Source: Trichopria drosophilae
Taxonomy: Eukaryota > Arthropoda > Insecta > Hymenoptera > Diapriidae
DNA: 64,000 nt
Direction: 5' to 3'
Assembly: GCA_030407085.1 (NCBI GenBank)
Contig: CM059583.1
Location: 210,612,001-210,676,000 of the forward strand
Shown: positions 4,276 to 62,692 of the stretch, piece after piece
Layout of the letters: every line of letters starts with the position of its first letter
How positions within the stretch are numbered: position 1 is the first letter of the stretch
Translations under genes and position numbers: made by a program
Notes under the pieces: generated by a model
Seen by the model: the letters and a program-made list of their open reading frames with translations, nothing else
The model's database searches: none
Told to the model about the DNA's origin: nothing

Positions 4276-11379
<7,104 letters not shown>

Positions 11380-35295: not shown

Positions 35296-36239
35296 GTTAT
35301 AGTTCTTATTAGACGCTTAGTTATGGAATTAACTCGTTCTACGAGCAAGTTGACACAGGTGTCCGGAATTCTTTCTTCCAGTATTGAATTCCAATTTTCT
35401 TTTGTTGCAAGTGATGACAGCTTTTTGTGGTTAATTTTTATTGTAGTTGTTTCCTTGTTTATGTTCTGTAAATTCTTAGTGTTCTTGCTTCTTGACGTTG
35501 TGTATGTCAGTAGTATTGGGTAGTGATCCGTTATTGTTGTTTCAATGACAGCAGCATTTACTTGATTAATGTACATTTCCGTTTTGATAAAGATATGATC
35601 AATTATGGTTTTAGTATGGTTGAATTCTCTTGTTGGAATATCATTAATAGCTGAGATAAAGCCATTTGTATATAATGCATTTAAGTAGGAGTCCGATGTA
35701 TTGTTTAGCTTTGAGATATCAATATTGATATCTCCTACTAGTATATGTTCGTTGCCAGCAGTTTTTAAATAAAAGTCAATGATAAAGTTATTGACATTTA
35801 TGGCATGAGATCTATACAAAGCAGTTATTTTTAATTTCGTGCTAAAATAATCGCAAATGTCTATTTCTAGCGCAGTTATTTCGCCAATTTTAATTTCCCG
35901 TACGAAGTGTTTTATGTTATCATGTATATAGATAACAGTACCATCGCTTTTATTCAATTTGCTGTAATTATAATAAGAAGTATATCCTTTTAGCGTAAAC
36001 ATTTCAAGTTTGTGTATAGTCCAGGTTTCAGAACAAATTATCATGTCGATTTTCTGTAAATATTGGGATGTTGTTATTTCGAGGTCATTGAAATGTTTAT
36101 TCATACTACGTATGTTGGTATGAATAACTGAAAATGTATTTTGATCTTGTAAACATTGAGGAATATATGTACTTATATCATCAAGATTTATTCGTTTAGT
36201 AATAATTTTTGTTTCAATAAATTGATCTAGAGTATTGAA
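35292..36239 (-). pseudogene. LINE endonuclease region of ORF2
   Basis: AP-endonuclease-like domain. ICSETWTIHK, HILVGDINIDIS, IIDHIFIKTEM and ITDHYPILLTYT are the expected ordered motifs. The open frame runs from directly after the ORF1 stop (36240-36242) to a stop at 35292. The first ATG is at 36104, but the domain extends upstream of it (HTNIRSM). A frame shift at about 35292 separates it from the RT, which should be one polypeptide. Confidence 0.85.
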
Positions 36240-37535
36240 TTAATTTATTTTAAACCCAAGAGGGTAATCAGTTTTCCATATTACGTACTTTTTCCTCTCT
36301 TGATATGTTGTACAATTTTCTAAGTCATGCGCACAATGATTTATATTCCTGTTTAATTTAAAACGAGTGTTTGTTGATATACAATTAATACACTTTTTTA
36401 CGTCATTATTGTCACAATCCTTTGTATTATGTCCTCCAGAACAATTTGCACAGTAATTTTGTTTATCACATTTTTTATGGAATGTCCATATCCACAGCAT
36501 TTTTGACATGGTTTAGAGTTGAAATCATCATAAACAGGACAATGATTCCAACCTGCATAAAGTTTTTTGCTTCCATTCATAATGTTGAAGTACATTTGTG
36601 AGTTCACTTCAATAAAGGCTGTATAACAATCTTTACCTGCAATATACATTATGTGGTTAACATTGATAGAGTTGTTATCTTCATGCGGAAAGTTTTTTCC
36701 AAGCAGTTCTTCTTTAAGTTGGTCGGGTGAAAATTTTTCTTCTAATCCAACAATCTTCAATCGAGGTTTCCCTAGTTTTTCTTGATTGATTTCATATTTA
36801 CTTTTTAATTTGTTTTCAATTTCATTGGTTAAGAACGTTACATCATTATTGTTTACACATTTAATTTTTATCCCGCCATTTTTAGTTGTATAAATTTGAT
36901 TTATTTCAATTTTCGTGTTTTTCAATTGAACTTTATTTATGAGATCTTTTTTTGTCTGAACGGAATCTTGTTTAGTTTTTGGAATGACAATAATAGACGG
37001 AATTCTTTGTTGAACTTTCAAGGAAGTTTTATTATTTGTAACACTTGCATACGTTGTATTACTTTTGACTTTAGTGAGTTGCAATTCTTTTGTTAGGTTT
37101 TCGTTTTTTTCTACTAAAAGTGCATTTTTATCTTTAATTTCATTATTTAAATCATGAAGTAAAGAAATTTGCTCACGTAGAGATTTGATTTCGGAATCTG
37201 AAGAATCCATTACGCTTTCGTCTAATCTCGTGTCTAATTTTTTAATTTTGATTATCAGTTGATTGTTTTCCTTTTTCAATAGGTCGTTCTCGTAGTCTCT
37301 TTGGTCCAATTTCTCTTCAAATTTCTGTAATTATTTCTTCAATTTGTTTATAGTTAAAGTATAATCCAATTCTTGACACATGGTTTCATTTTCATCACAA
37401 CAGCACATTAGTATTCCACTTTTTACAATTTTATCAGCATAATCGCGCTCACAGCAACTTTTGTGGAATCTACCACCACAGTTATAACATATGTAAACAT
37501 CTCGTGCTTTTTTGTTACAGCATTTATACTGCAGT
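36240..37535 (-). pseudogene. LINE ORF1 with PHD-like finger, coiled coil and zinc knuckles
   Basis: The 5' part (37535 to about 37335) reads CYNCGGRFHKSCCERDYAD with more Cys after it, a PHD-like finger, and then hits an in-frame TAA at about 37330. The main open stretch, 37309-36398, starts DQRDYENDLLKKENN, is strongly coiled-coil and basic, and ends in the first knuckle PCQKCCGYGHS. A frame shift near 36480 puts the other two knuckles (CANCSGGHNTKDC, CINC...H...C) in the frame of 36509-36240. In such LINEs ORF1 is the RNA-binding chaperone. Confidence 0.8.
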
Positions 37536-45776: not shown

Positions 45777-46385
45777 AGCTTTGTGAACCTGGCACCCGAC
45801 TTTTCGAAATTCAAAATGTAAAACGCTATTTCGATAGAGTTATGAATACAGTTGAATGTAGTAGAACGAATTTCGTTTGTAGTTGCAGAAAGAGAAAGTT
45901 ACAGGGGGTCCAAAAAAGCCCAGCACCCCAGTTTAAAATATTTTTTGTTTAAAATTTTTTTCCGACAGAAAATCGTTTGTAGTTGATTGTAGTGAAGGAA
46001 TTTCCGTTCGTAGTAGACAGGAAACCGTTTTATGTAAAAAAATTTTTTTTTTTATTTTAATTTTTTTTTTATATTTTAATTTTTGTAATTTTTAATTTAT
46101 GTAAATGTATATTTATAGCCTGCATTGGCAAAATCCCACTACTCACAGGCAAAGTTGATACGAAAGTGTTGCCGCCCCCCCTGACCCACCGCGCCAAACA
46201 GCCTCCGATTAAGAGTAACCAAAACAACCATCAATTTTAATTTCGTACCCAATTGCTCTCAAAAGAAGTTTATTGTAAATTAATATATTCATACCAATTC
46301 GTAGTTTTTTTTAAGCAACCGCGGCAACTATAAACAACAACAAACGTTTATGAAACATCTAATATGAATTACAAATCATATCCTG

Positions 46386-49305
46386 GCGTTTAAATCGTTA
46401 GTAGTCATATTTTGAACAACTGCAAACCAATACAAACTTTCATTTCGTGTCTAGTGCCAATAAAATAAAATGTCCCACAGTTTAAATCATTTGTAGTAAT
46501 TTTTTAAGTAACTACAAACCTTCGTTTCCTCTATAGTATTACTAAATGTAATGTCCTAGGGTCTAAATCGTTTGTAGTAATTTTTTAAGCTACTACAAAC
46601 GTCCCTTTTATCTCGACTGTTAATAAAATATAATATCCTACGGTTTAAATCGTTTGTAGTAATTTTTTAAGCTACTACAAACGTCCGTTCCACCTCTGGT
46701 GTTAATAAAATGCAGTGTCCTATGGTTTAAATCGTTTGTAGTAATTTATTAAGCAACTACAAACATCTATAAACGTTTATTTCGTCTGTAGTGTTAATAA
46801 AAAACAATATCCTATGATTTAAACCGTTTGTAGTAATTTTTTAAGCAACTACAAACATCAGATTAATCTCTAGTGTTAATAAAATGCAGTATCCTATGGT
46901 TGAAATAGTTTGTAGTAATTTATTAAGCAACTACAAACGTCCGTTTCGCCTCTACTGTTAATAAAAGACAATATCCTATGGTTTAAATCGTTTGTAGTAA
47001 TTTTTTAAGCAACTACAAACATCCGATTAATCTCTAGTGTTAATAAATTGCAGTGTCCTATGGTTTAAATCGGTTGTAGTAATTTTTTAAGCTATAACAA
47101 ACGTCCGTTTCACCTCTAGTATTAATAAAATGCAGTATCCTATGGTTTAAATCGTTTGTAGTAATTTATTAAGCAACTACAAACGTCCGTTTCATCTCTA
47201 GTGTTAATAAAATACAGTGTCGTATGGTTTAAATCGGTTGTAGTAATTTTTTAAGCTACTACAAACGTCCGTTTCACCTCTAGTGTTAATAAAATGCAGT
47301 ATCCTATAGTTTCAATCGTTTGTAGTAATTTCTAAACCTACTACAAATTACTACAAACGTTTATTTCGTCTCTAGTGTTATTAAAAAATAATATCCTATG
47401 GTTTAAATCGCTTGTAGTAATTTTTTAAGCTACTACAAACGACCGTTTCACCTCTAGTGTTAATAAAATGCTGTGTCCTTTGGTTTAAATCGTTTGTAGT
47501 AATTTATTAAGATACTACAAACGTCCGTTTCATCTCTAGTGTTAATAAAATGCAGTGTCCTTTGGTTTAAATCGTTTGTAGTAATTTCTTGAGCAACAAC
47601 AAACGTTTATTTCGTCTCTAGAGTTAATAAATTCCAATATCCGACTCATTAAATCGTTTGTAGTAATTTCATAAGCTACTACAAACAACCACAAACGTTT
47701 ATTTCGTCTCTAGTGTTAATAAAATACAATATTCTACGGTTTAAATCGTTTGTAGTAATTTCTAAAGCTACTACAAACTACTACAAACGTTTATTTCGTC
47801 TCTAGTGTTATTAAAATACAATATTCTACGGTTTAAATCGTTTGTAGTAATTTATTAAGCAACTACAAACGTACGTTTCATCTCTAGTGTTAATAAAAGA
47901 CAATATCCTATGGTTTAAATCGTTTGTAGTAATTTTTTAAGCAACTACAAACATCCGATTAATCTCTAGTGTTAATAAAATGCAGTGTCCTATGGTTTAA
48001 ATCGTTTGTAGTAATTTATTAAGCAACTACAAACAACTACAAACGTTTATTTCGTCTCTAGTGTTAAGAAAATGCAGTGTCCTATGGTTTAAATCGTTTG
48101 TAGTAATTTTTTGAGCTACTACAAACGACCTTTTCTCCTCTAGTGTTAATAAAATGCAGTGTCCTATGGTTTAAATAGTTTGTAGTAATTTTTTAAGCTA
48201 CTACAAACGTCCGTTTCGCCTCTACTGTTAATAAAAGACAATATCCTATGGTTTAAATCGTTTGTAGTAATTTTTTAAGCAACTACAAACATCCGATTAA
48301 TCTCTAGTGTTAATAAAATGCAGTGTCCTATGGTTTAAATCGTTTGTAGTAATTTATTAAGCAACTACAAACAACTACAAACGTTTATTTCGTCTCTAGT
48401 GTTAATAAAATACAATATCCTATGGTTTAAATCGTTTGTTGTAATTTTTAAGCCGCTACAAACGTCCGTTTCATCTCTAGTGTTAATAAAATGCAGTGTC
48501 CTATGGTTTAAATCGTTTGTAGTAATTTTTTAAGATACTAAAACCGTCCGTTTCATCTCTAGTGTTAATAAAATGCAATGTCCTATGGTTTAAATCGTTT
48601 GTAGTAATATTTTAAGCTACAAGAAACGTCCGTTTCACCTCTAGTGTTAATAAAATGCAGTATCCTATGGTATCAATCGTTTGTAGTAATTTATTAAGCA
48701 ACTACAAACAACTACAAACGTTTATTTCGTCTCTGGTTTTAATAAAATACAATATACTATGGTTTAAATCGTTTGTAGTAATTTTTTAAGCCGCTACAAA
48801 CGTCCGTTTCATCTCTAGTGTTAATAAAATACAGTGTCGTATGGTTTAAATCGGTTGTAGTAATTTTTTAAGCTACTACAAACGTCCGTTTCACCTCTAG
48901 TGTTAATAAAATGCAGTGTCCTATGGTTTAAATCGTTTGTAGTAATTTTTTAAGCTACTAAAAACGTCCGTTTCATCTCTAGTGTTAATAAAATGCAATG
49001 TCCTATGGTTTAAATCGTTTGTAGTAATTTTTTAAGCTACAACAAACGTCCGTTCCACCTCTAGTGTTAATAAAATGCAGTGTCCTGTGGTTTAAATAGT
49101 TTGTAGTAATTTTTTAAGCTACTACAAACGTCCGTTTCGCCTCTACTGTTAATAAAATGCTGTGTCCTTTGGTTTAAATCGTTTGTAGTAATTTATTAAG
49201 ATACTACAAACGTCCGTTTCATCTCTAGTGTTAATAAAATGCAGTGTCCTTTGGTTTAAATCGTTTGTAGTAATTTCTTGAGCAACAACAAACGTTTATT
49301 TCTTC
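46386..49305. repeat. Left-arm tandem array of ~82-93-bp hairpin repeats
   Basis: Units read GTTTAAATCGTTTGTAGTAA, a T/A spacer, CTACTACAAACG, then CTCTAGTGTTAATAAAATG and CAGTGTCCTATG. There are roughly 30 units by eye. Each contains a 9-10-bp stem, GTTTGTAGTA against TACTACAAAC, around an ~11-nt loop. Three unit types alternate after the stem: CGTCCGTTTCATCTC, CATCCGATTAATCTC, and a longer one with a doubled ACTACAAAC and CGTTTATTTCGTCTC. The array resumes after the LTR element at 59783. Confidence 0.92.
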
Positions 49306-49788
49306 TGTTATATCCAGAATAATGTACATTGTATGTAATGAAGATATTCAAATTTAAATTATAGAAATAGGCATGAATGTATATGTATATGAATGTTCTG
49401 AGTAGTCGAGGTTCATTTTCGAATTGAAAAGTGCGTTCAGTTCGGTCTGAACATTGAAACCGTGCGGAGTACCATTATCTCTAAACTTAGTATTAATTTG
49501 CGTATTGTGGGTTATCCCTATTTAAAATAATACTTTCTTTTTTTTTGGATTCTTTTTGAAGAGGAAATAATTGGTAAGTACTAAAGAGTATATTTACTAT
49601 CATTTTATATATTTCATTTCTTTTTTTTGGTAATAGTAGAATTATTTTTGTATTTGTCATAATAGTTTATTTGGTTTTAATATTTCATGATATAAATTAT
49701 TCAATTTCGCTTCTGTAGGGAAGATCATAAAGGTATTGACAAATTATTTCTTATTTCTATTATATTAGTCACAAAAGAACTTATAACA
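49306..49788 (+). repeat. 5' LTR, 483 bp
   Basis: Begins TGTTATATCCAG and ends AACTTATAACA. It contains an initiator-like TCAGTT at 49437-49442, the usual cap motif of insect gypsy elements, and a strong splice donor TTG|GTAAGTA at 49573/49574. It differs from the 3' LTR at TATATCC/TACATCC, GTGCG/GTTCG and GAACATT/GAAAATT. Confidence 0.95.
49437..49573 (+). promoter_or_regulatory. Putative cap site and short leader exon with splice donor
   Basis: Starting from the initiator TCAGTT, the ~136 nt up to TTG|GTAAGTACT contain no ATG. If spliced to the acceptor at 57433/57434 this leader would deliver ribosomes straight to the third ORF. The cap site and splice use are inferred from motifs. Confidence 0.5.
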
Positions 49789-49790
49789 AA

Positions 49791-49807
49791 TGGTGTCAGA
49801 AGTGGGA
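49791..49807 (+). other. Primer-binding site, tRNA-Leu
   Basis: TGGTGTCAGAAGTGGGA begins two bases after the 5' LTR. It is complementary to the CCA-added 3' end of animal tRNA-Leu of the ...CCCACTTCTGACA type. It primes minus-strand DNA synthesis. Confidence 0.85.
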
Positions 49808-51146
49808 TACCTTTATTGAAATTGAATTTTTTCATTTTTTTTTTTGGTTAAATTTAGTATAAATTATTATTGTCATTATCGTGTATTATATTCATAAACA
49901 AACTAATTGATTTTGGAAGAATTGAGTTAATATTGTAAGCCATATTTTCATATATGATTACGAGATTTAGTGAAATATATTTTTAAATTAATAACTGTCA
50001 ATTTTAATGTCGTTTGAGCATACATATGTTGCTGACACAATACGAAATTATTAAATGAATTTAAGTACTTTTTATCTTTTTGTTTCGTATTGATATTATT
50101 ATTGGACAATTCGAACGTTTTATTGAAATATTTTTAAATTTATTACTATGATAAATGTAAGTTGTGGGTGAGGTGTGACTTATTTAAAGATAAGGCGGTT
50201 ATATTGATGCGAATGACATTTTGAATAATATTTTGACATATTAATTGCATTGGATGTATGTTTGACTAAATAAAAATTATTTGTAGAAAGGGGTATTTAA
50301 ATTAATATTAAAATTTATGAAAATTATTATGTTTTTTTCTACGTATATTTTTGTGTATGTGTCTATATTTATTATTTATTAATTTATTGAAGTAATTTCA
50401 ACATTTTATTTTATAATAATTAAAATAGCATTATAAGTAAAGTAAAATTTGGAATTAATTCAACATTTATTGCAGTGAAAGTGTTAATCAAAACAGTGCG
50501 CGGAAAGTAAACAACCTAGATTTCGGAGGAAAATACAGAAAATAATATTTGAAATTGGCGTTATATGATTAAATTTAAACTTTTCCGTTTTTTTTGATAA
50601 TTTTGTTTAATGTATTAATTATTATTTAATTACATACTATTTGATTTATTTTAATTATTTTTTATTTTTTTTTTGTTATTTATTTTTATAATTTGGTAGA
50701 TTTTGTATTTATTTTTATAATTTTCAGAATACTTTTGTTCAAACTATGAGGATAAATTCATTAATTAATTTCCGTTCACTGTCATCTTATTTAATTGATT
50801 TACTTATTTCATTTTTATAATTTGCCAATTGTGGAATACCTGGATTGTTTTCATTGAAAACAAATTTTATGTTGTTAATTATTTTAAGATTGTAGCGATG
50901 ATTTTCAATTTTATTTTCAGGAATGTATATATAATATTTATAATATTTAATTTGTATATTTATGTTACTATTGAATGACTATTTATGCTAATATTGAAAT
51001 ACATGTTCCTTTAACCTATGTTATACACGACGACTTTCGGAATTGTATGTGTATATATGCAGTTTGCGTGATATTATATTTTTTTTTGTCGTGTTATGTT
51101 TATGATTAATTTGATATTTTATTTTATTCAGAACATTTAAAATAAA

Positions 51147-51179
<33 letters not shown>

Positions 51180-51455
51180 TTGTACCATATCGAATGACAT
51201 TAAAATAGATATAATCCCTTAATTAAAACCAGATGAATTTCCTTTTTTTTTTGTTTTACAGTCATTGGATTTTGATATTATAATTAAATGATATTACAAT
51301 TAAAATAAGTTGCAGGAATATTATGTGATAAAATTTAATATTCAATATTGTCAAGTATTTCCTAATCTAATATAATTTCTTTTATTTATTTTTATTTTTG
51401 TTATTTTCGTTTTGTTAATTATATAATTGTGTAGTGTAATAATATTGGTTACAAA
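49808..51455 (+). other. Long AT-rich untranslated leader of the LTR element
   Basis: About 1.65 kb with no coding region, many short upstream ATGs and a poly(A) tract at about 51147-51176. A second good donor-like AAT|GTAAGT is near 50155. Packaging and internal initiation signals would be expected here but are not recognisable. Confidence 0.6.
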
Positions 51456-52697
51456 ATGACAGATCCAGATATAACAAATGTAATGATGACATCAATGGCA
51501 GAGTATATGATTCTACAAAACTCTGTGGTAAATATACCTTATTATGATGGAAAGAACATGCCATTGAAGAATTTTTTACAAGACATAAAAAATGCATCAA
51601 AGTATGTTCCGGCTGAATTAGAAGGCAATCTTGTCAATAGTATTATTGGAAAATTACAGGGTACAGCTAGAGATAGTGTTTTTAGTAAAACTTTTGTTAC
51701 TGTGGATTCCTTAATAAAACATTTGAAGACAAGATTTGCCTCGGATAAAACGTATAATTATTATGTAGAACAACTAGAAAAATCTTATATGCAAAAAGGG
51801 GAAACCGTAAATGATTTTTATGATAGAATAAATATAATTATTTCGGGAGCAAGTTCAGCTTTAAAAGAGACTTATGGGGATCGATCAAAAGAAATGATAT
51901 TGCCATTAAAAGAGTGCGCATTAGAAGTTTTTTTGAAAGGTTTACCAGATGAGATAGCCGGCGTTGTTGAAGCTCGAGATCCAAAAAGGTTAGATGAGGC
52001 ATTGGAAATAGCAGTTAAAAGAGAACGTAGGTGTAGTTCTGGTAAAGTAGATTTAAAGAATATTCAGGGGAGTTTAGTTAATTGTAGTTTAGCACATAGT
52101 TCCCATGATATGCCAGAAGACTTTCGTATTCATAATTATCCCATTAATCAAGCTGGAAACCATCCTTTTAAAGTAAACTCAGGAACTTTAAACCATGATA
52201 TTAATAAATATAATCAAAGACAGGATTTTGACAGATCTTTGGGATATCAGTATTTACCACCTCCAATGCCCGTGCCTCCATGTCCATTCCCATATCCTTA
52301 TCCATACTTCTATCCGCCGTATGGATATCCTCCTTATATGAATTCTCAAATGCAAAATATACCACCAAATCCGTATCCAGTAAACCCTTGTAACATGCAA
52401 CCATACAATTATCAATTGCAACAACCATACACTTATCAACCTCCTTATCAACCTCCTTATCAACCTCCTTATCAACGACGGGGCTTTTATCAAAATCCGC
52501 AAGAAAATAAATATCGATCCTCTTTACCGACCACATCAAATCAAAAGGACAATTCTCCAGTAAAAATTAGGGAAATACCAGATTCTTTAAACTCTCCCGT
52601 GATTCGTCGTGGAGACGCAACGGCGAATCAAGTGGCGAACGAGCGTCAAGAGAAAGTAAAATTTCTGGTATCCGACAAATCAAAATCGTCAAAATAA
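51456..52697 (+). CDS. gag: Gag polyprotein of the LTR element, 413 aa
   Basis: Structural protein of the retrotransposon particle. Residues ~30-190 have the helical retroviral/gypsy capsid look (NIPYYDGKNMPLKNFLQDIK, FLKGLPDEIAGVVEARDPKR). The C-terminal third is Pro/Tyr-rich with YQPPYQPPYQPPYQ encoded by a 12-bp repeat (about 52430-52480). No CCHC zinc knuckle is seen, which is unusual for gypsy-type gag; nucleic-acid binding may rest on the basic tail (RRG, NERQEKVKF). The start is the first in-frame ATG after the leader. The last 125 nt overlap the pol frame, and the stop is at 52695-52697. Intact. Confidence 0.9.
   Translation: MTDPDITNVMMTSMAEYMILQNSVVNIPYYDGKNMPLKNFLQDIKNASKYVPAELEGNLVNSIIGKLQGTARDSVFSKTFVTVDSLIKHLKTRFASDKTYNYYVEQLEKSYMQKGETVNDFYDRINIIISGASSALKETYGDRSKEMILPLKECALEVFLKGLPDEIAGVVEARDPKRLDEALEIAVKRERRCSSGKVDLKNIQGSLVNCSLAHSSHDMPEDFRIHNYPINQAGNHPFKVNSGTLNHDINKYNQRQDFDRSLGYQYLPPPMPVPPCPFPYPYPYFYPPYGYPPYMNSQMQNIPPNPYPVNPCNMQPYNYQLQQPYTYQPPYQPPYQPPYQRRGFYQNPQENKYRSSLPTTSNQKDNSPVKIREIPDSLNSPVIRRGDATANQVANERQEKVKFLVSDKSKSSK
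52586..52630 (+). promoter_or_regulatory. -1 ribosomal frameshift signal between gag and pol
   Basis: The slippery heptamer T TTA AAC lies at 52586-52592 in the gag frame, followed after 7 nt by a stem-loop. 52600-52609 (TGATTCGTCG) pairs with 52621-52630 (CGGCGAATCA), 10 pairs including one G-U, with an 11-nt loop. The pol frame is open only from 52571, so the heptamer falls inside the short permissible overlap. Confidence 0.85.
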
Positions 52698-55600
52698 ATG
52701 CTGGAGTACCTCGAATTTTTGTTGATAGTCCTGAATTAATTAAAGGTGCAGACTTTTTAATTGATACGGGTGCAGAAATTTCGTTAATTAAAATTGATGC
52801 TTTAGATCCGGAACTTGATGTTAATATTTCCGATAAAATACGAATTTCAGGTATAACTAGTGATGAGATAGAGACTTTAGGGATAGTTAAAATAAATATT
52901 GCAAATAGTCTAGTGGATTTGCACATAGTGGATTCTTCCTTTCCGTTAAATTGTGTAGGTATATTAGGAAAAGATTATTTAATTAAGGAACAGGCTGAGA
53001 TTTCATTTTTCCATAACACTATAGTAACAGCGACCAATTCTACTAAACCCATTAAATTCATACCACCTATTGACAATAATATGACTCATATGAAGACGTA
53101 TTTAATCCCTAAAAGAAGTAGATCTCGCATGGAATTAGAGATAATTCATAACAACTTGGAAGAAGGTTATTTGCCAAGAATAGATACACCTGATGGAGTA
53201 TATATTGGAGAGGCTTTAGTACGGGTCATCAATAAGAATAAGTGTCAGGTCCTCGCTATAAATACATCAGAAAAAGATGAGGAAATAACAATACCTCCTC
53301 AAGAAATTATTCCAGTTGAATATTATGATGTAGAAGAAGACAGAAACAATCAAGATGTAAAAGAAGATGCGATGTTGGAACCAACTAATCGATTTAAAAA
53401 AATCATGGAATTATTAAATTTGAGTCATCTAAATGAAGAAGAAAAAAATCATATTATGGAATTGGTTCAAGAGTTTCCACAACAATTTTATTTGGAAGGA
53501 GATAGATTACCAATGACGTCAAAAATAAAGCATCGAATTCCAACATCAGATGATTTACCAGTTAATACTAAGCAGTATAGACACCCTCCAGTACACAAGG
53601 ACGAAATTGAGCATCAAGTATTTCAAAAATTGCAGAACAATATAATTACGCCTTCAGATTCGCCATACAATTCCCCTATATGGATTGTGCCGAAAAAACC
53701 GGATAGTCACGGAAATCCAAGATGGCGTATGGTTATTGATTTTAGACAATTAAATGAAAAAACCATAAGTGATGCTTATCCATTGCCTAATATTGAAGAT
53801 ACTTTTGATATGATGGGAGAAGCTATGTATTTTTCTGTATTGGATCTAGCATCAGGATTTCAACAAATTGGAATAGATGCTAGAGATAGACAAAAAACTG
53901 CCTTTACTACACCTAATGGACATTACGAATATCTTAGAATGCCAGAAGGATTAAAAAATGCACCGGCTACCTTTCAACGGCTTATGGACAATGTACTAAG
54001 AGGTTTGACCAAAACAGAAGCCTTTGTGTACATGGATGATATAATAATCTTTGCAAAGGACTTGGAAGAACACAAAAAGAAGATGAGAAGATTATTTAAA
54101 AGATTAGATGATGCAAATTTGACTTTGCAACCGGATAAATGCAGTTTTTTGCGACCCGAAGTAATATACCTAGGGCACATAATTAGTAAAGACGGCCTTA
54201 AGCCAAATTCAGAAAAAATTAAAGCTGTAAAATATTTTCCAAGACCACGAACACAACGGAATATCAGAGAATTTTTAGGATTAACCGGGTACTATAGAAG
54301 ATTCATAGAACATTATGCAAGCATAGCAAAACCATTAACGGAGTTATTAAAGAAAAACGTAAAATTCATTTGGAAAGAAGATCAAGAGAATAGTTTTAAT
54401 GTATTAAAAGGAAAATTATGTGAAGCTCCTATATTACAATATCCTAATTTTAATGAAGATTTTATTGTAACTACAGATGCATCGGATTATGCTATTGGAG
54501 CTGTGCTGAGTCAAAAGGTAAATGGTCAAGATTTACCAGTCTGTTATTTATCCAGATCCCTAACAGCAGCAGAACAAAACTATTTTACAACAGAGAAAGA
54601 ATGTCTGGCTGTTTTGCATGCAGTCTTACGTTTTAGACCTTATTTATATGGCAGACGATTTATATTGATTAGTGATCACGAGCCATTGAAATGGATAGAT
54701 TCAGTTAAAGATCCAGGACAAAGATTAATTAGGTGGAGACTTAAATTAAGGGATTATAATTATGATTTTAAACATAAGGCTGGACGCTTGAACAGTAACG
54801 CCGACGCTCTTTCTAGAAACCCAGTTGACAAAGATCAAGTTTGTTCTATGGATATATTACCATCAACGCAAGTTACAACAAAAATATTACCAATAGACAA
54901 AGCGGCCGAAGCCCCAAACAACGGACAACCTCAAAGTATCTTGAAGGGGCCTGGAAGACCCATAGGTTCTAAAAATAAAAATGAATTTTCGGAGAATAAT
55001 ATATTGCCTAGTAGGACAAGGTCAGGAATGATTAAACAAACGGATCAGCTAGAAAAGCCTCCAATACGTCAAAAACATAAAAGCGTTTTCCCAAATTTAG
55101 AATTTAATCCAATTGAAGAGATAGATGAAGATCTTTCATCTATGGTAGAAGAAAATAACTTAGAAGAACAAGATATAGAAGAACGTGAAGCTCCAAATAT
55201 ACGTCCTACTCTAGATGTTATAGAATTGGAAGAATCTAATCATGATTTGAGTGATACAGACGAAAATGATGAAGATCAGAGGTCATTTTCTGTAAATTTA
55301 CAGGAATTAAAGAACTCAATTACTCAGTTTGATAATTCGCTCAAAGAACGCCAACACGTACCAGAGATAGAAGAAGAAATAATAGCAGGAATGAAGAATT
55401 TGAGAGCTCAAGAATTTGGATTATTTCACAAAGCTCTAGGATCAGAGTTAACCAAAAAACCTGAAGGAAAGACGAATAGGAGGTTGCCAGTTGCAATAAA
55501 TGAAAATTTGAGTGTGGATAACATCGAAGAACATACTCATATCATTCACCCTCCATTAACTTCAACTGACGATACATTTAATAATAGCCTCCCTAAAAAT

Positions 55601-57013
55601 CCATTAGCTGTATCCACTCCTTATAGTACATCACAATATAGACTAAACTCGAAAGAGGGAGGTATTGTGGATAATCCTACTAAACAGAAAAATACAATTA
55701 CTCCAAGACAATTGATAACTTCTAATGACATAGATAGAGTAGTGACAACAGAAGAAATTTTGCCAGACGTAGACCTTACCGACAATAATGCGAATAAGAC
55801 ATCAGTAGGTTTTACTGGGGGGAATTTAACATATAGACCAGACAATTATGTGCATTTTATCTCGTCCGACTGTAAAATAGTTACACCAGTAGGAAAATTA
55901 TTACTTGATTTGGAAATAATTAATTTAGATGAAATAAAAGAAATGAAACCAAAAATAGGACAAATACTAATTACACCGAATCAAAAATATAAAGTTTTTA
56001 CTGTTGTTATCAAAAATAGACATTTCGACAATGTTTTAAAAGAGAATTTAAGAATAGCCCTACTTAATTTAAGCGCGTTACTTCAAAGATTGAAGGTGGT
56101 TTCCTTTAGGATATCCCAAGTAGGTGACTTTATAGAGGATTATTCAGTGGAATCGTTAAAAGAATTATTTTGCCGTACTTTTCAAATTAATAAAAGCTTA
56201 ACAATATCGATATGCACAGGTCAAGTTCAAATACCCCCTGAGGAATTACGTTCAAAAATCGTTGAAGAGTTTCATAATAGTCTTATAGGCGGGCATAAAG
56301 GCATATCAAAAACTTATAAAAGAATTCGTGAAAGGTTCTATTGGCCAGGAATGAAAAATGACATCCAAAATTTTATCCGTGAATGTGATAGTTGTCATAA
56401 AAATAAGATAGTAAGAGCTAGAACGCGCGAGCCGATGATTATTACCGACACTCCCATAGAAGCATTCGAAAAAGTTTGTTTAGATGCTGTGGGACCTCTC
56501 CCTATAACGCCCAGTGGTAATAAATATATAATAACTATGCAAGATAATTTGACAAAATACAGTGTTGCCGTACCGGTCCCTAATATATTAGCAGAAACGA
56601 TAGCTCATGTGTTTGTAACTAAATGTATATTACAATATGGAGCACCTAAAGATATTCTATCTGATAGAGGGCCAAATTTTATAGGTAAAATAATGAAGAA
56701 TATATCGAAAATATTTAAAATTCATCCAAATACAACTTCTAGTTATAGACCTCAAACTAATGGCAGTTTAGAAAGAAGTCATGCGGTATTAGTCGAATAT
56801 ATTAAACATTATCTTACGGACTATAATGATTGGGATAAGTTAGTACCATTTGCGATCTTTTCATACAATACTTCGGTTCATGAAGGTACTAATTTTACTC
56901 CTTTTGAATTGATTTTTGGGAAAGTGGCACGATGTCCTAGTTCATTTCCTGATAATGGCGAATTAAAAACTTATAATTCATATTTATCGGATTTAATACA
57001 TAGATGGATTTAA
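52592..57013 (+). CDS. pol: Pol polyprotein of the LTR element (PR-RT-RH-linker-IN)
   Basis: Read in the -1 frame relative to gag (open from 52571, entered at 52592). The aspartic protease motif LIDTGAEISL is at 52763. Reverse transcriptase has VIDFRQLNEKT, LDLASGFQQI, TPNGHYEYLRMPEGLKNAPA and the catalytic YMDD at 54029-54040. RNase H has TTDASDYAIGAVLSQ and TTEKECLAVLHAV. A ~380-residue acidic, low-complexity linker follows; it begins with an AT-hook-like GPGRPIGSKNK near 54949 and ends in a macrodomain-like segment (about 55840-56215). Integrase has the zinc-binding H-H-C-C (GGHKG...CDSCHKNK), then the acidic triad at VCLDAVGPL, LSDRGPNF and GSLERSH. The frame is closed by TAA at 57011-57013 before the integrase end; the rest continues in the same frame downstream. 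RT and integrase catalytic residues are all present. Confidence 0.93.
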   Translation, partial: LSRDSSWRRNGESSGERASRESKISGIRQIKIVKINAGVPRIFVDSPELIKGADFLIDTGAEISLIKIDALDPELDVNISDKIRISGITSDEIETLGIVKINIANSLVDLHIVDSSFPLNCVGILGKDYLIKEQAEISFFHNTIVTATNSTKPIKFIPPIDNNMTHMKTYLIPKRSRSRMELEIIHNNLEEGYLPRIDTPDGVYIGEALVRVINKNKCQVLAINTSEKDEEITIPPQEIIPVEYYDVEEDRNNQDVKEDAMLEPTNRFKKIMELLNLSHLNEEEKNHIMELVQEFPQQFYLEGDRLPMTSKIKHRIPTSDDLPVNTKQYRHPPVHKDEIEHQVFQKLQNNIITPSDSPYNSPIWIVPKKPDSHGNPRWRMVIDFRQLNEKTISDAYPLPNIEDTFDMMGEAMYFSVLDLASGFQQIGIDARDRQKTAFTTPNGHYEYLRMPEGLKNAPATFQRLMDNVLRGLTKTEAFVYMDDIIIFAKDLEEHKKKMRRLFKRLDDANLTLQPDKCSFLRPEVIYLGHIISKDGLKPNSEKIKAVKYFPRPRTQRNIREFLGLTGYYRRFIEHYASIAKPLTELLKKNVKFIWKEDQENSFNVLKGKLCEAPILQYPNFNEDFIVTTDASDYAIGAVLSQKVNGQDLPVCYLSRSLTAAEQNYFTTEKECLAVLHAVLRFRPYLYGRRFILISDHEPLKWIDSVKDPGQRLIRWRLKLRDYNYDFKHKAGRLNSNADALSRNPVDKDQVCSMDILPSTQVTTKILPIDKAAEAPNNGQPQSILKGPGRPIGSKNKNEFSENNILPSRTRSGMIKQTDQLEKPPIRQKHKSVFPNLEFNPIEEIDEDLSSMVEENNLEEQDIEEREAPNIRPTLDVIELEESNHDLSDTDENDEDQRSFSVNLQELKNSITQFDNSLKERQHVPEIEEEIIAGMKNLRAQEFGLFHKALGSELTKKPEGKTNRRLPVAINENLSVDNIEEHTHIIHPPLTSTDDTFNNSLPKNPLAVSTPYSTSQYRLNSKEGGIVDNPTKQKNTITPRQLITSNDIDRVVTTEEILPDVDLTDNNANKTSVGFTGGNLTYRPDNYVHFISSDCKIVTPVGKLLLDLEIINLDEIKEMKPKIGQILITPNQKYKVFTVVIKNRHFDNVLKENLRIALLNLSALLQRLKVVSFRISQVGDFIEDYSVESLKELFCRTFQINKSLTISICTGQVQIPPEELRSKIVEEFHNSLIGGHKGISKTYKRIRERFYWPGMKNDIQNFIRECDSCHKNKIVRARTREPMIITDTPIEAFEKVCLDAVGPLPITPSGNKYIITMQDNLTKYSVAVPVPNILAETIAHVFVTKCILQYGAPKDILSDRGPNFIGKIMKNISKIFKIHPNTTSSYRPQTNGSLERSHAVLVEYIKHYLTDYNDWDKLVPFAIFSYNTSVHEGTNFTPFELIFGKVARCPSSFPDNGELKTYNSYLSDLIHRWI
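55840..56215 (+). other. Macrodomain-like segment inside pol
   Basis: Between RNase H and integrase, NYVHFISSDCKIVTPVGKLL, KPKIGQILIT, YKVFTVVIK, NLRIALLNLSALLQ, VVSFRISQVGDFIED and SLTISIC follow the strand/helix order and spacing of TARG1/ALC1-type macrodomains, which bind or remove ADP-ribose. The diagnostic glycine-rich loop is eroded (RISQVGD where PRIGCGLD-type is usual), so catalysis is doubtful. This is a pattern match by eye. Confidence 0.5.
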
Positions 57014-57022
57014 TGCATAGAA

Positions 57023-57280
57023 ATGCAAGTCTTAGCTGGGAAAAATCTAATAAAAGCGAAAGAAAGGTCAAAAGAAAATTATGACAAGCGATCTAAACCA
57101 TTTTTAGGACAGGTAGGTGATAAGGTAAAAGTTGTAATTGAACCTAAATCTGGAAAATTTGGCGGAAGATATAGCACTTCATATACTATGTTAGGACAAA
57201 CGGATAGGAAAAATGTATTGTTAAAAGACTCACAGGGAAAAATTATACAAAAACATGTAGATAAGGTTGTGTTGATTTAG
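57023..57280 (+). CDS. C-terminal piece of integrase after an in-frame stop
   Basis: Same frame as pol, separated from it by TAA at 57011-57013 and nine bases. MQVLAGKNLIKAKERSKENY followed by DKRSKPFLGQVGDKVKVVI is the usual gypsy integrase tail leading into its SH3-like C-terminal domain. A 17-nt imperfect direct repeat (GGATTTAATACATAGAT / GGATTTAATGCATAGAA) spans the break and may be its cause. Whether the stop is read through or inactivates this copy is not decidable. Confidence 0.75.
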   Translation: MQVLAGKNLIKAKERSKENYDKRSKPFLGQVGDKVKVVIEPKSGKFGGRYSTSYTMLGQTDRKNVLLKDSQGKIIQKHVDKVVLI

Positions 57281-57436
57281 CTATAAGATATTAAGTATAC
57301 TGTGGAAAACCTAAGAATACTCTATAGGGTATTGTGGAAGATCCTAAAATAGTAATATCTAAAACTTAACTTATATATACATAATTTTCTTGTTTTTTTA
57401 TATATGTACTTTTTTTTTTTTCTTCCCTTTTAGAAA
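57281..57436 (+). promoter_or_regulatory. Intercistronic region with strong splice acceptor
   Basis: The region ends in a 12-T run plus CTTCCCTTTTAG (about 57410-57433), then AAA and the ATG of the third ORF at 57437. The long pyrimidine tract and AG directly before a start codon are what a subgenomic env-type mRNA needs. Confidence 0.7.
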
Positions 57437-59104
57437 ATGAATCAACTAGAGAAGACAGCAAAAATCAGACGGGTCTTTATTGCAAGGTTGGCAAGTCGAT
57501 CAAATAAGCAAGACCTAATGGGACTTTTTAGGAATTATGGGGCAGAACATGCCGTCATTCTTAAGAGAAGTCGTGGTAATGTTGCTTTCGTTACCTTTTC
57601 CACGGTTGAGCAGGCCCAAAGGATTTTAGACTCTTCAAAAACTCAATCGTTTTCTTTACACAATCGGAAGTTGAGAATTTTATCTGCGGATGTTTGGCAT
57701 AATAGGGACTCTGTTCCTGATTTCGTTCCTGTACCTGAACCGGTCGCAAACTCATCCCTGCAGCTTCCAGAGCTTCCAATAGCAAAAATATGTTCTTTCC
57801 TAACTTATAAGGACAGAGAGGGATGTGAAACTCTATCGACCACTTGGAAAGAAGGAAGCCTCAGGTCATATAATGATATCACATCATTATCGACAAATTC
57901 CTGGATGTTTCAAGACGGATGGAATCAGTCAGAAATAGCTTCGGAAGATGTCTACCAAGTAATTCAAAAAGGACACAAAACCTTGAAGACCATTGAATTA
58001 ACAAATAATGCCAAACTAATACCTCCGCAAATAGTTACCATAGCAGGAGATAAATGCAAAATATTAAGAGAATTATCAACCTTAGGAATAACTGTCCGAC
58101 CAAATGGGTTTTATGCAGTCGCAAAGGATAATACGCAACTCGAGAAAATACACATAGGAATTACTATAGGGCCTATGGATAAAGAACTTAGTATTTTATT
58201 TAAAAATAATGTAATGTTACAAGAAATATTATTTAAGGGGTCAAATATAACTGGAAAATGTTTGCAAAACTTAAGTCGATTTTTAGAAACAATATCATTT
58301 GAGGACTGCAATGATCTCAAGGCGACGTGGTTAGCACAATTTTTGAAAACACAAAATTGTATAAAAATTCTTAAATTAAAACAAAATAAACATGCATTTG
58401 GAAAAGAAATAATAGAGGCAATAGTTAACAATAAAAATAATAAAATGTTTTTAAAAGAATTGAGTGTAAATGAATATCCAGTAGGAAGAAATTTCGAATC
58501 CATGCAGCTAACAGAAGAAGAAATGAACGTAGTTGGAGAACCAATGTTTCTAGAAATGGATGAAGTTTTTATGAGTCAGGAAACAAATTTACCGGAGGCA
58601 TGTTCATCGTTAAAAAACTTAGAAATATTGTATTGTGCATGGGCAAATGAAGATCTCGTATACAATATGGGAATGCACCTGAAAGAATTAACGAAACTAG
58701 ACATTTCTGGGTGTTCGAACATTAAGGGTGAATTTTCTCTTGATCCATTGGGATTGCTAACGAATTTCCAGAAGATAAACATACGATTTATGCATCCAAC
58801 AGTAGGCGTCCATTTTTTAGCAGATTTGCCACATTTAAGAACAGTCGATTGTTCCAACAGTTTTGGAGTAAGTGACGATGAGATCCGTCATTTGATCAGA
58901 AATAATAGTTTATTGGGGAGTCTGAATCTAGAGGGCTGTGTTGGCGTGGGAAGAGGAGTTGTGGACTGCGCTTACGAATCTCTTAAGATGGGTTTTAGAA
59001 ACAAGTTGTTAACTATATACCTTGGTGGGACGAAGGCAACCCAAAGAAAAAAGGACAAGAGGAATAATTTATTAAAATTGGTTTATAAACGAGCAGAATT
59101 GTAA
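57437..59104 (+). CDS. Third ORF of the LTR element: RRM + F-box + LRR protein, 555 aa
   Basis: An intact ORF in the env position. Residues ~11-84 form an RNA-recognition motif: RNP2 VFIARL at 13-18 and RNP1 RGNVAFVTF at 46-54. Residues ~108-150 fit an F-box: LQLPELPIAKICSFLTYKDR followed by EGCETLSTTWKEG, with conserved LP, Leu/Ile spacing, DR and W. Residues ~165-540 are leucine-rich repeats of the F-box/LRR type (LKTIELTNN, LRELSTLGI, LEKIHIG, LKNLEILYC, LTKLDISGCS, LRTVDCSN, LGSLNLEGC). In the family F-box proteins bind Skp1 and recruit targets to SCF ubiquitin ligase; an RRM adds RNA binding. No signal peptide or transmembrane helix, so not an envelope. Codon usage is AT-rich like gag and pol. 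The combination RRM-F-box-LRR also occurs in cellular proteins of the EEED8.10-like kind, so capture of a host gene is likely. The target is unknown. Confidence 0.88.
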   Translation: MNQLEKTAKIRRVFIARLASRSNKQDLMGLFRNYGAEHAVILKRSRGNVAFVTFSTVEQAQRILDSSKTQSFSLHNRKLRILSADVWHNRDSVPDFVPVPEPVANSSLQLPELPIAKICSFLTYKDREGCETLSTTWKEGSLRSYNDITSLSTNSWMFQDGWNQSEIASEDVYQVIQKGHKTLKTIELTNNAKLIPPQIVTIAGDKCKILRELSTLGITVRPNGFYAVAKDNTQLEKIHIGITIGPMDKELSILFKNNVMLQEILFKGSNITGKCLQNLSRFLETISFEDCNDLKATWLAQFLKTQNCIKILKLKQNKHAFGKEIIEAIVNNKNNKMFLKELSVNEYPVGRNFESMQLTEEEMNVVGEPMFLEMDEVFMSQETNLPEACSSLKNLEILYCAWANEDLVYNMGMHLKELTKLDISGCSNIKGEFSLDPLGLLTNFQKINIRFMHPTVGVHFLADLPHLRTVDCSNSFGVSDDEIRHLIRNNSLLGSLNLEGCVGVGRGVVDCAYESLKMGFRNKLLTIYLGGTKATQRKKDKRNNLLKLVYKRAEL

Positions 59105-59282
59105 CCCTGCAACGAAAAAAATATCTTGGATATTGTGGGAATTTCTCTTATAACATTTTTGTTTTACTATTCATTTTATTTCTTTTTGTATTTTGTATAA
59201 ACTGTAACAAAATAAATGCGTATGCATTGTGGAATTCCTATTTAAACTAAGATTGTTCATTACCGAGGACGGCAATGATTCT
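59105..59282 (+). other. 3' untranslated part of the LTR element
   Basis: Short AT-rich stretch with an AATAAA at about 59209-59215 upstream of the 3' LTR. No coding. Confidence 0.5.
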
Positions 59283-59293
59283 AAGGAGGGAGG
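59283..59293 (+). other. Polypurine tract
   Basis: AAGGAGGGAGG directly before the 3' LTR (59296). It primes plus-strand DNA synthesis. Confidence 0.85.
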
Positions 59294-59295
59294 TC

Positions 59296-59778
59296 TGTTA
59301 CATCCAGAATAATGTACATTGTATGTAATGAAGATATTCAAATTTAAATTATAGAAATAGGCATGAATGTATATGTATATGAATGTTCTGAGTAGTCGAG
59401 GTTCATTTTCGAATTGAAAAGTTCGTTCAGTTCGGTCTGAAAATTGAAACCGTGCGGAGTACCATTATCTCTAAACTTAGTATTAATTTGCGTATTGTGG
59501 GTTATCCCTATTTAAAATAATACTTTCTTTTTTTTTGGATTCTTTTTGAAGAGGAAATAATTGGTAAGTACTAAAGAGTATATTTACTATCATTTTATAT
59601 ATTTCATTTCTTTTTTTTGGTAATAGTAGAATTATTTTTGTATTTGTCATAATAGTTTATTTGGTTTTAATATTTCATGATATAAATTATTCAATTTCGC
59701 TTCTGTAGGGAAGATCATAAAGGTATTGACAAATTATTTCTTATTTCTATTATATTAGTCACAAAAGAACTTATAACA
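59296..59778 (+). repeat. 3' LTR, 483 bp
   Basis: Begins TGTTACATCCAG and ends AACTTATAACA, followed by the CTTC duplication at 59779-59782. Same length as the 5' LTR, with about three substitutions. Confidence 0.95.
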
Positions 59779-59782
59779 CTTC

Positions 59783-62083
59783 TCTAGAGTTAATAAATTC
59801 CAATATCCGACTCATTAAATCGTTTGTAGTAATTTCATAAGCTACTACAAACTACTACAAACGTTTATTTCGTCTCTAGTGTTATTAAAATACAATATTC
59901 TACGGTTTAAATCGTTTGTAGTAATTTATTAAGCAACTACGAACAACTACAAACGTTTATTTCGTCTCTAGTGTTATTAAAATACAATATTCTACGGTTT
60001 AAATGTTTGTAGTAATTTATTAAGCAACTACAAACGTCCGTTTCATCTCTAGTGTTAATAAAATGCAGTGTCCTATGGTTTAAATCGTTTGTAGTAATTT
60101 ATTAAGCAACTACAAAAGACGAAATAAACGTTTGTAGTTGTTTTTAGTTGTTTAAGAAATTACTACAAACGATTTAAACCATAGGACACTGCATTTTATT
60201 AACACTAGAGATGAAATTACTACAAACGATTTAATGAGTCGGATATTGGAATTTATTAACTCTAGAGATGAAATAAACGTGTGTTGTTGTTTGTATTTGC
60301 TCAAGAAATTACTACAAACGATTTAAACCAAAGGACACTGCATTTTATTAACACTAGAGATGAAACGGACGTTTGTAGTAGCTTAAAAAATGACTACAAA
60401 CGATTTAAACCATAGGATATTGTCTTTTATTAATACTACAGACGAAATAAGCGTTTGTAGTTGTTTGTAGTAGCTTATGAAATTACTAGAAACGATTTAA
60501 TGAGTCGGATATTGGAATTTATTAACTCTAGAGACGAAATAAACGTTTGTTGTTGTTTGTAGTTGCTCAAGAAATTACTACAAACGATTTAAACCAAAGG
60601 ACACTGCATTTTATTAACACTAGAGATTGATCGGATGTTTGTAGTTGCTTAATCAATTACTACAAACTATTTAAACCGTAGAATATTGTATTTTATTAAC
60701 ACTAGAGACGAAATAAACGTTTGTAGTTGTTTGTAGCAGCTTATGAAATTACTAGAAACGATTTAATGAGTCGGATATTGGAATTTATTAACTCTAGAGA
60801 TGAAATAAACGTTTGTTGTTGTTTGTAGTTGCTCGAGAAATTACTACAAACGATTTAAACCATAGGACACTGCATTTTATTAACACTAGAGATTAATCGG
60901 TTGTTTGTAGTTGCTTAAAAAATTACTACAAACGATTTAAACCATAGGATATTGTCTTTTATTAACAGTAGAGGCGAAACGGACGTTTGTAGTAGCTTAA
61001 AAAATGACTACAAACTATTTAAACCACAGGACACTGCATTTTATTAACACTAGAGATGAAAAGGACGTTTGTAGTAGCTTAAAAAATTACTACAAACGAT
61101 TTAAACCATAGGATATTGTCTTTTATTAATACTACATACGAAATAAGCGTTTGTAGTTGTTTGTTGTTGCTTAATCAATTACTACAAACGATTTAAACCG
61201 TAGAATATTGTATTTTAATAACATTAGAGACGAAATAAACATTTGTAGTAGTTTGTACTAGCTTTAGTAATTACTACAAACGATTTAAACCGTAGAATAT
61301 TGTATTTTATTAACACTAGAGACGAAATAAACGTTGGTAGTTGTTTGTAGTAGCTTATGAAATTACTACAAACGATTTAAACCAAAGGACACTGCATTTT
61401 ATTAACACTAGAGATGAAACGGACGTTTGTAGTAGCTTAAAAAATTACTACAAACGATTTAAACCATAGGATATTATTTTTTAATAACACTAGAGATGAA
61501 ATAAACGTTTGTAGTTGTTTGTAGTAGCTTAATAAATTACTACAAACGATTTAAACCATAGGATACTTCATTTTATTAACACTAGAGATGAAACGGACGT
61601 TTGTAGCGGCTTAAAAAATTACTACAAACGATTTAAACCATAGGATATTGTATTTTATTAACACTAGAGACGAAATAAACATTTGTAGTAGTTTGTACTA
61701 GCTTTAGTAATTACTACAAACGATTTAAACCGTAGAATATTGTATTTTATTAACACTAGAGACGAAATAAACGTTGGTAGTTGTTTGTAGTAGCTTATGA
61801 AATTACTACAAATGATTTAAACCAAAGGACACTGCATTTTATTAACACTAGAGATGAAACGGACGTTTGTAGTAGCTTAAAAAATTACTACAAACGATTT
61901 AGACCATACGATATTGCATTTAGTAATACTATAGAGGAAACGAAGGTTTGTAGTTACTTAAAAAATTACTACAAACGATTTAAACTGTGGGAATTTTATT
62001 TTATTGGCACTAGACACGAAATGAAAGTTTGTATTTGTTTGCAGTTGCTCAAAATATGACTACTAACGATTTAAACGCCAGGA
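59783..62083. repeat. Array across the Foldback centre and right arm
   Basis: The first ~335 bp (59783-60117) continue the left-arm array in the same orientation. At 60117/60118 the units flip, and the remaining ~2 kb (roughly 20-plus units) run as the reverse complement: TTACTACAAACGATTTAAAC, CATAGGACACTGCATTTTAT, TAACACTAGAGATGAAA. ORFs crossing this stretch come from the repeat and are not genes. Confidence 0.92.
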
Positions 62084-62692
62084 CATGATTTGTAATTCAT
62101 ATTAGATGTTTCATAAACGTTTGTTGTTGTTTATAGTTGCCGCGGTTGCTTAAAAAAAACTACGAATTGTTATGAATATATTCATTTACAATAAACTGCT
62201 TTTGAGAGCAATTGGGCACGAAATTAAAATTGATGGTTGTTTTGGTTTCTCTTAATCGGAGGCTGTTTGGCGCGGAGGGTCAGGGGGGGGGGGCGGCAAC
62301 ACTTTCGTATCAACTTTGTCTGTGAGTAGTGGGATTTTGCCAATGCAGACTATAAATATACATTTACATAAATTAAAAATTACAAAAATTAAAATATAAA
62401 AAAAAAATTAAAAATAAAAAAAAAATTTTGTTATCATAAATCGGTTTCCTGTCTACTACAAACGGAAATTCCTTCACTACAATCAACTACAAACGATTTT
62501 CTGTCGGAAAAAAATTTGAAACAAAAAATTTTTGAAACTGGGGTGCTGGGCTTTTTTGGACCCCCTGTAACTTTTTCTTTCTGCAACTACAAACGAAATT
62601 CGTTCTACTACATTCAACTACATTCATAACTCTATCGAAATAGCGTTTTACATTTTGAATTTCGAAAAGTCGAGTGCCAGGTTCACAAAGCT

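Follow-up and report, generated by a model that had tools for sequence, protein, structure and literature searches.

An RRM–F-box–LRR protein gene in the third position of a Ty3-type LTR retrotransposon family of Trichopria drosophilae

The element and the domains of its third gene

The stretch of DNA analysed here, hereafter the window, comprises 64,000 nucleotides of the Trichopria drosophilae genome (C2:210612001–210676000) and contains a Ty3-type long terminal repeat (LTR) retrotransposon at 49306–59778, recognised by its LTR pair, its CTTC target duplication and its polypurine tract. The third gene of this element, an open reading frame (ORF) of 555 codons on the plus strand (ORF3, 57437–59104), encodes a protein in which an RRM is followed by an F-box and a leucine-rich-repeat (LRR) domain. 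As the preliminary description of the locus had stated, ORF3 runs without an internal stop between the integrase and the polypurine tract (AAGGAGGGAGG, 59283–59293, plus strand), just 5' of the latter, and 423 bp separate it from the end of the pol ORF at 57013. The position in which errantiviruses carry env is occupied by a gene that does not encode an envelope. ORF3 is a gene of an element family and not a one-off, as its distribution over the genome demonstrates.

With regard to the domains, which are all encoded on the plus strand, the RRM (residues 11–85, 57467–57691) reaches 26.0 bits against the RRM_1 profile, whose Pfam cut-off is 20.7, and has the predicted order beta-alpha-beta-beta-alpha-beta. 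The F-box (residues 106–150, 57752–57886) comprises three predicted helices at residues 112–147 and is sub-threshold in Pfam in the window copy, as is the LRR domain (residues 151–550, 57887–59086), whose fold is nevertheless present in the structural model. Profiles thus confirm one of the three domains proposed earlier in the window copy itself, whereas the F-box is supported by the relatives L023, L030, L031 and L032, in which it is over the Pfam cut-off, and the F-box–LRR build by the predicted fold. In some relatives, RRM_1 is under its cut-off.

The best fold matches of the ORF3 model are the SCF receptors FBXL2 and FBXL17, from the F-box onward through the LRR arc, at 14–18% identity. 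The F-box lies within the alignment of the model to FBXL2 9–400, and the model shows the F-box followed by the LRR arc, as in FBXL structures; the element protein differs by its extra N-terminal RRM. The structural alignment rows (VIA-align) mostly span residues 109–553 and barely cover the RRM. An initial model built from 3 alignment rows was poor (pLDDT 56) and was left unused. In the viral structure library, the matches are LRR and F-box proteins of giant viruses and entomopoxviruses, with TM-scores of at most 0.48 by query length, and we read them as reflecting a common fold. In domain order and predicted fold, the ORF3 product resembles the substrate receptors of SCF ligases, apart from its additional RRM, and it is predicted to recruit SCF.

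The remaining parts of the element, likewise on the plus strand, are those of a Ty3-type retrotransposon. The 5' LTR (49306–49788, 483 bp, TGTTA...TAACA) and the 3' LTR (59296–59778), which begins two bases after the polypurine tract, are identical in 482 of 485 columns of an alignment that takes in two bases flanking the 3' LTR, with differences at 3 sites. Copies of the CTTC duplication, read directly, stand at 49302–49305 and 59779–59782, and a primer-binding-site-like stretch, TGGTGTCAGAAGTGGGA, adjoins the 5' LTR at 49791–49807. The gag ORF (51456–52697, 413 aa) matches Ty3_capsid weakly, at 15.9 bits, under the Pfam cut-off. The pol ORF (52913–57013) encodes reverse transcriptase, RNase H, an H2C2 zinc-binding domain and the integrase core, in the order reverse transcriptase–RNase H–integrase found in Ty3-type elements; the integrase core is just under its cut-off (31.4 bits versus 32.6), and its zinc-binding domain is over it (83.4 bits). 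As this ORF is stopped in frame near the integrase C-terminus (57011–57013), the window copy is not wholly intact, although it is young, as described earlier, with three LTR differences and a 4-bp duplication; the stop in pol corrects the earlier description.

Inverted arrays of 82/92-bp repeats flank the element at about 46172–49301 and 59783–62292, one 300-nt arm pair being 97% complementary; the element evidently jumped into a foldback-like structure made of these arrays. Elsewhere in the window, pieces of a non-LTR retrotransposon, which we take to be jockey-like, lie on the minus strand at 33356–37309, and exon-like stretches at 10095–10685 (plus strand) and 14113–15361 (minus strand) presumably resemble a Rac/Cdc42 GTPase in the first case and a Golgi subunit of COG7 type in the second. 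Like the Baculo_F envelope described below, these genes point to an insect host. An Rfam scan at gathering scores and a tRNA scan of the window gave no matches.

Copies across the genome, selection and expression signals

A search of the genome (936 Mb, 509 contigs) with ORF3 at E ≤ 0.001 returned at least 79 matching stretches, a lower bound since 78 of 330 candidates were scored, and some of them are pieces of one copy split over two or three rows. Fifty of the 79, including locus L030 discussed below, are full length (from residue 12 or earlier to residue 544 or later), and 36 of these are free of stops; the ORF recurs in many other copies of the element, for which the preliminary description had proposed a search. 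By identity, they form subfamilies A (99%), B (about 70%), C, E and F (33–36%), and D and D2 (32–33%). Tracts resembling the polypurine tract of the window precede TGTTA in subfamilies B, C, D and E. Of the 39 fetched loci whose ORF3 has 500 aa or more, 37 have the integrase directly upstream, the pol match ending 318–440 bp before the ORF3 match on the same strand; the two exceptions are L050, at a contig end, and L030, which has no pol match in the 3.1 kb upstream.

Counted from the integrase (the best 144 of 8132 candidates, of which 103 were sorted by identity and 41, at 51–54%, left aside), ORF3 follows 12 of the 13 integrases at least 85% identical to that of the window by script, and the thirteenth (C2:85541138) by hand. 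At 65–76% identity, it was found in 37 of 62 by the ORF3 search and in 3 more by a search with the abalone protein described below, with 22 remaining, and at 58–62% in 1 of 28. Behind one 71%-identical integrase, L055 (C6:58043400–58046200) shows G-rich low-complexity sequence and a tandem repeat, and no ORF3. The 41 matches at 51–54% belong to additional families, whose pol frames reach 2153 codons.

Selection was estimated by the Nei–Gojobori method on one representative per subfamily, for the five pairs without near-saturated synonymous sites. The ratio of nonsynonymous to synonymous substitution (dN/dS) is 0.15–0.22 between subfamilies, the underlying dN and dS values being 0.18/1.22 for A–B, 0.12/0.68 for D–D2, 0.19/0.91 for E–F, 0.23/1.05 for C–E and 0.20/1.16 for C–F. 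ORF3 is under purifying selection between subfamilies, and all three domains are constrained: over the five pairs, the ratio is 0.08–0.24 for the RRM, 0.09–0.40 for the F-box and 0.11–0.25 for the LRR halves, and it rises to 0.53 in the linker and 0.57 in the loop. Within subfamilies, the corresponding ratio (pN/pS) is higher, at 0.42 in A, 0.33 in B, 0.40 in F, 0.64 in D2 (one pair) and 0.77 in E. As the ratio is low between subfamilies and higher within them, the gene matters to the copies that go on spreading, a pattern that we read as that of a working element gene.

The hypothesis of a neutral passenger, gained by one element and carried along, has to be considered here, since transposons carry host fragments, and pN/pS reaches 1.17 in C and 1.42 in D, which also speaks against constraint on the gene. 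These are the youngest subfamilies, with less than one synonymous difference per pair, and such values are as expected of fresh copies no longer serving. The constraint that the preliminary description proposed to look for among copies is thus found between subfamilies and is not seen within the two youngest, where differences are few. Given the stop-free state of 36 of the 50 full-length matches, and an ORF3 length and position that are common to subfamilies merely 33–36% identical, a passenger is highly improbable, and at the level of subfamilies the dN/dS values refute it.

A different reading of the domain-wise values would make the RRM the working part: by binding element RNA, the ORF3 product would help to package, export or translate it, and its F-box–LRR half would be a mere scaffold that has ceased to recruit Skp1. 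Several results favour it and weigh against an SCF receptor: among 14 members scanned, RRM_1 is found in all 14 at E ≤ 1, compared with 9 for F-box-like and 7 for F-box; in the window copy, the F-box is weak, without a match at E ≤ 1 when the whole ORF3 is scanned and with 16.3 bits versus a cut-off of 20.5 as a cut-out piece; and the F-box dN/dS exceeds that of the RRM in 3 of the 5 pairs. Yet this ratio is still within the constrained range given above and is below that of the RRM in the other 2 pairs, and the F-box is both over the Pfam cut-offs in four relatives and included in the best structural alignments. We therefore regard a pure RNA helper as quite unlikely.

ORF3 diverges faster than the integrase (A–B about 70% versus 94%; A–C 36% versus 74%). 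This difference bears on the proposal that ORF3 is an SCF receptor whose target is either a cell-cycle factor or a component of the element itself (Gag, integrase or particle), its role being to time or restrict the element cycle and not to counter host defence. Such self-regulation shares the evidence of fold and constraint with the counter-defence reading, and the steady place of the gene beside pol fits a part in the replication cycle equally well. Nothing points to an element substrate, and rapid divergence better suits a host-facing protein, so we consider self-regulation unlikely.

Groups AB, CEF and D are recovered in both the ORF3 and the integrase trees. The interior of CEF is discordant, as L032 joins L047 and L049 by integrase and L042 by ORF3, which may point to exchange between elements. 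L030 (1495–3237; C2:206829166) carries an intact ORF3-like gene of 581 aa, and its flank contains no pol or gag match within 3.1 kb upstream. It clusters with subfamilies A and B (90/90 and 87/88 with the full length, 99/99 with the first 420 residues), and a topology that places L030 outside the copies of the element could not be rejected (p 0.10). L030 may thus be a domesticated copy, or a progenitor or relative of the source gene.

With regard to expression, a splice-acceptor-like AG following a pyrimidine tract is present at 57432–57433 (plus strand), 3 bases 5' of the ORF3 start codon. A pyrimidine-rich stretch with an AG at most about 12 bases from the start codon occurs at 38 of 39 full-length ORF3 loci, L030 being the exception, whereas 151 of 2182 ATGs of the window satisfy the same rule. 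Subfamilies D and D2 have a weak form of the site, the sequence of which varies among subfamilies, and copies of the same subfamily are not independent. A splice-donor-like GT (TTG/GTAAGT) lies in the 5' LTR at 49574–49575 (plus strand) and is also found in the LTR of subfamily B. Env of insect endogenous retroviruses is translated from a spliced subgenomic RNA (PMC12992720), and by analogy ORF3 would be expressed from a spliced RNA, as env is. Within the LTR itself, the donor-like GGTAAGT is followed by an acceptor-like TTCTGTAG (49574 to 49718); the pair recurs at the same place in the 3' LTR, is shared by B and is similar in C, and may represent a leader intron.

An envelope-bearing sister lineage and the origin of the gene

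In a sister lineage, with integrases about 60% identical to that of the window, the one copy read, L054 (C1:148048536 and downstream), shows the errantivirus arrangement. Its integrase is 62% identical and is followed by a 635-aa Baculo_F envelope, which scores 133.6 bits against a Pfam cut-off of 24.1. Downstream of the envelope, L054 has a fourth ORF (C1:148045150–148046142) that covers residues 9–339 of another locus, L053, at 47% identity, its first part being 51% identical over 141 residues. The F-box of L053 is over its cut-off (25.6 versus 24.3), and the RRM-like part is sub-threshold both in L053 (Nup35_RRM_2, 15.1 versus 27) and in the L054 piece (RRM_1, 12.6 versus 20.7). At residues 104–324, L053 can be aligned with the RRM–F-box–LRR protein of abalone (24% identity, E 6e-9).

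L053-like sequence occupies 68 rows, or 45 places counted by hand. Among the 28 integrases of 58–62% identity, 14 are followed by an L053-like ORF 2.3–3.2 kb downstream, and 13 have neither this ORF nor ORF3 in these lists; the gap of 2.3–3.2 kb is the space that an env would need. L053 was also considered as an intron-split host RRM–F-box gene, a candidate that was dropped since 14 places of its family sit behind sister-lineage integrases. Just upstream of L053 lies a stretch that weakly matches the end of the envelope (32 residues, E 0.016), and L053 is more likely an element ORF than a host gene. The envelope of L054 gave no match among L001–L050, and the 318–440 bp between pol and ORF3 at 37 loci of the window lineage leave no room for env.

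Since the sister lineage has, in the copy read, both env and an F-box ORF with an RRM-like region, the earlier phrase "in place of env" stands in so far as the third gene of the window element is not an envelope; it most likely means loss of env and retention of the adaptor gene, not a simple replacement. The ancestral lineage likely had an envelope and an adaptor gene, and the adaptor looks like a long-standing accessory gene of the lineage. Alternatively, the env-bearing sister and the env-less window lineage may each have gained an F-box gene with an RRM-like part. Several features suggest two captures of this kind: ORF3 and the sister's fourth ORF are very distant from each other, the tree position of L053 is unsettled, with a branch of 3.16, its RRM is below threshold, and in profile comparisons with ORF3, L053 (E 1.8e-8) scores less well than an ordinary FBXL14-like host protein (9.3e-13). 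The similar domain order, the same side of pol and the related integrases speak for a single origin, and we consider independent gains a serious possibility, although not the one we favour.

Among the proteins returned by the searches, the same domain order was found only in P0001 and P0002 of Haliotis (abalone) and in P0010, an assembled protein of unknown origin. P0001 (F-box/LRR-repeat protein 3-like) and P0002 ("putative RNA-binding protein EEED8.10", named after what we assume to be a C. elegans gene) share the three domains in identical order with ORF3; they differ in being annotated mollusc genes, which are not known to be carried by a transposon, and are 20–24% identical to it. The ORF3 family profile matches P0001 at E 4.8e-34, and the trees have long branches. 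No insect protein appeared among the 7994 candidates scored per search (those sharing most words), which is no evidence of absence. A convincing parental host gene, sought as the preliminary description had advised, was not found in the genome. L051, which matches the abalone protein best, is an ordinary FBXL that we take to be FBXL14-like, and it was rejected as a parent since no RRM was recognised by eye in the ORF read. Of the capture proposed earlier, what holds is that the gene is part of the element and present in many of its copies; it looks like a long-established part of the lineage, not like a recent acquisition.

Searching a viral contig database with ORF3 and a pol piece gave no relative. 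Insect endogenous retroviruses and errantiviruses (gypsy, ZAM) share with the window element a Ty3-type gag-pol and a third gene before the polypurine tract, and the splice-acceptor-like site before ORF3 parallels their spliced env RNA (PMC12992720). They differ from it in the nature of the third gene, and from the sister copy in its fourth; the term "F-box" is absent from the main text of that paper. Plant LTR retrotransposons with additional ORFs (PMC7264820) likewise have an extra gene alongside gag-pol; they belong to another kingdom and are likened to the present family by the presence of an extra ORF alone. Both elements that carry an additional ORF and viruses that turn ubiquitin ligases to their own use are known kinds. 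In contrast, searches of the open-access literature turned up neither an LTR lineage of animals in which an RRM–F-box–LRR gene is conserved nor an env-bearing sister with an F-box-type fourth gene; titles and abstract openings described no F-box gene in an animal LTR element, and a search on EEED8.10 found nothing relevant.

Proposed function

An accessory SCF receptor is the best-supported reading of the mechanism. From the F-box–LRR build one would expect the product to dock on Skp1 and to have a protein as its target, from the RRM that its place of action is linked to RNA, and from purifying selection that the element benefits. We tentatively propose, as a reading with nearly even prospects, that ORF3, the third gene of a Ty3-type family under purifying selection, encodes an SCF receptor that marks a host restraint factor for destruction. 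A subgenomic RNA, spliced from the 5' LTR donor to the acceptor just ahead of ORF3, would make the protein, as for env in insect endogenous retroviruses. The F-box would then dock on Skp1 and thereby on the host Cul1 ligase, while the target protein would be held in the LRR arc. Through the RRM, the complex would be guided to the RNA of the element or to RNA-bound silencing complexes of the host. The marked factor, which restrains the element, would be destroyed. As to origin, such a gene would have entered the lineage long ago, and the window lineage, without room for env, would have kept it.

Polerovirus P0 and lentiviral Vif and Vpx are viral proteins that hijack cullin ligases. The ORF3 product would work alike, a mobile element bringing its own receptor to destroy a host restraint; as far as we are aware, the proteins are unrelated. 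Counter-silencing is the obvious candidate for the role of ORF3, given that an element of this kind encounters silencing complexes bound to RNA, with self-regulation of Gag or integrase, or a purely RNA-binding role, as possible alternatives. A bolder reading, which we consider speculative and rather improbable, is that of an insect "complex retrovirus" lineage with gag, pol, a Baculo_F env and a fourth, RRM–F-box–LRR gene, the product of which would be an RNA-directed adaptor destroying Piwi/Argonaute-type complexes on element RNA. Its env-less branch would have kept the adaptor because a genome-bound element cannot do without escape from silencing.

Animal retrotransposons are held down by small-RNA silencing, and we know of few dedicated counter-weapons on the side of the element. 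A conserved, element-borne predicted ubiquitin-ligase receptor with an RNA-binding domain is a concrete and testable candidate for one. The env-bearing sister lineage would be an insect counterpart of retroviruses that carry accessory genes, and by comparing the two lineages one can ask whether the loss of env and the retention of the adaptor go together.
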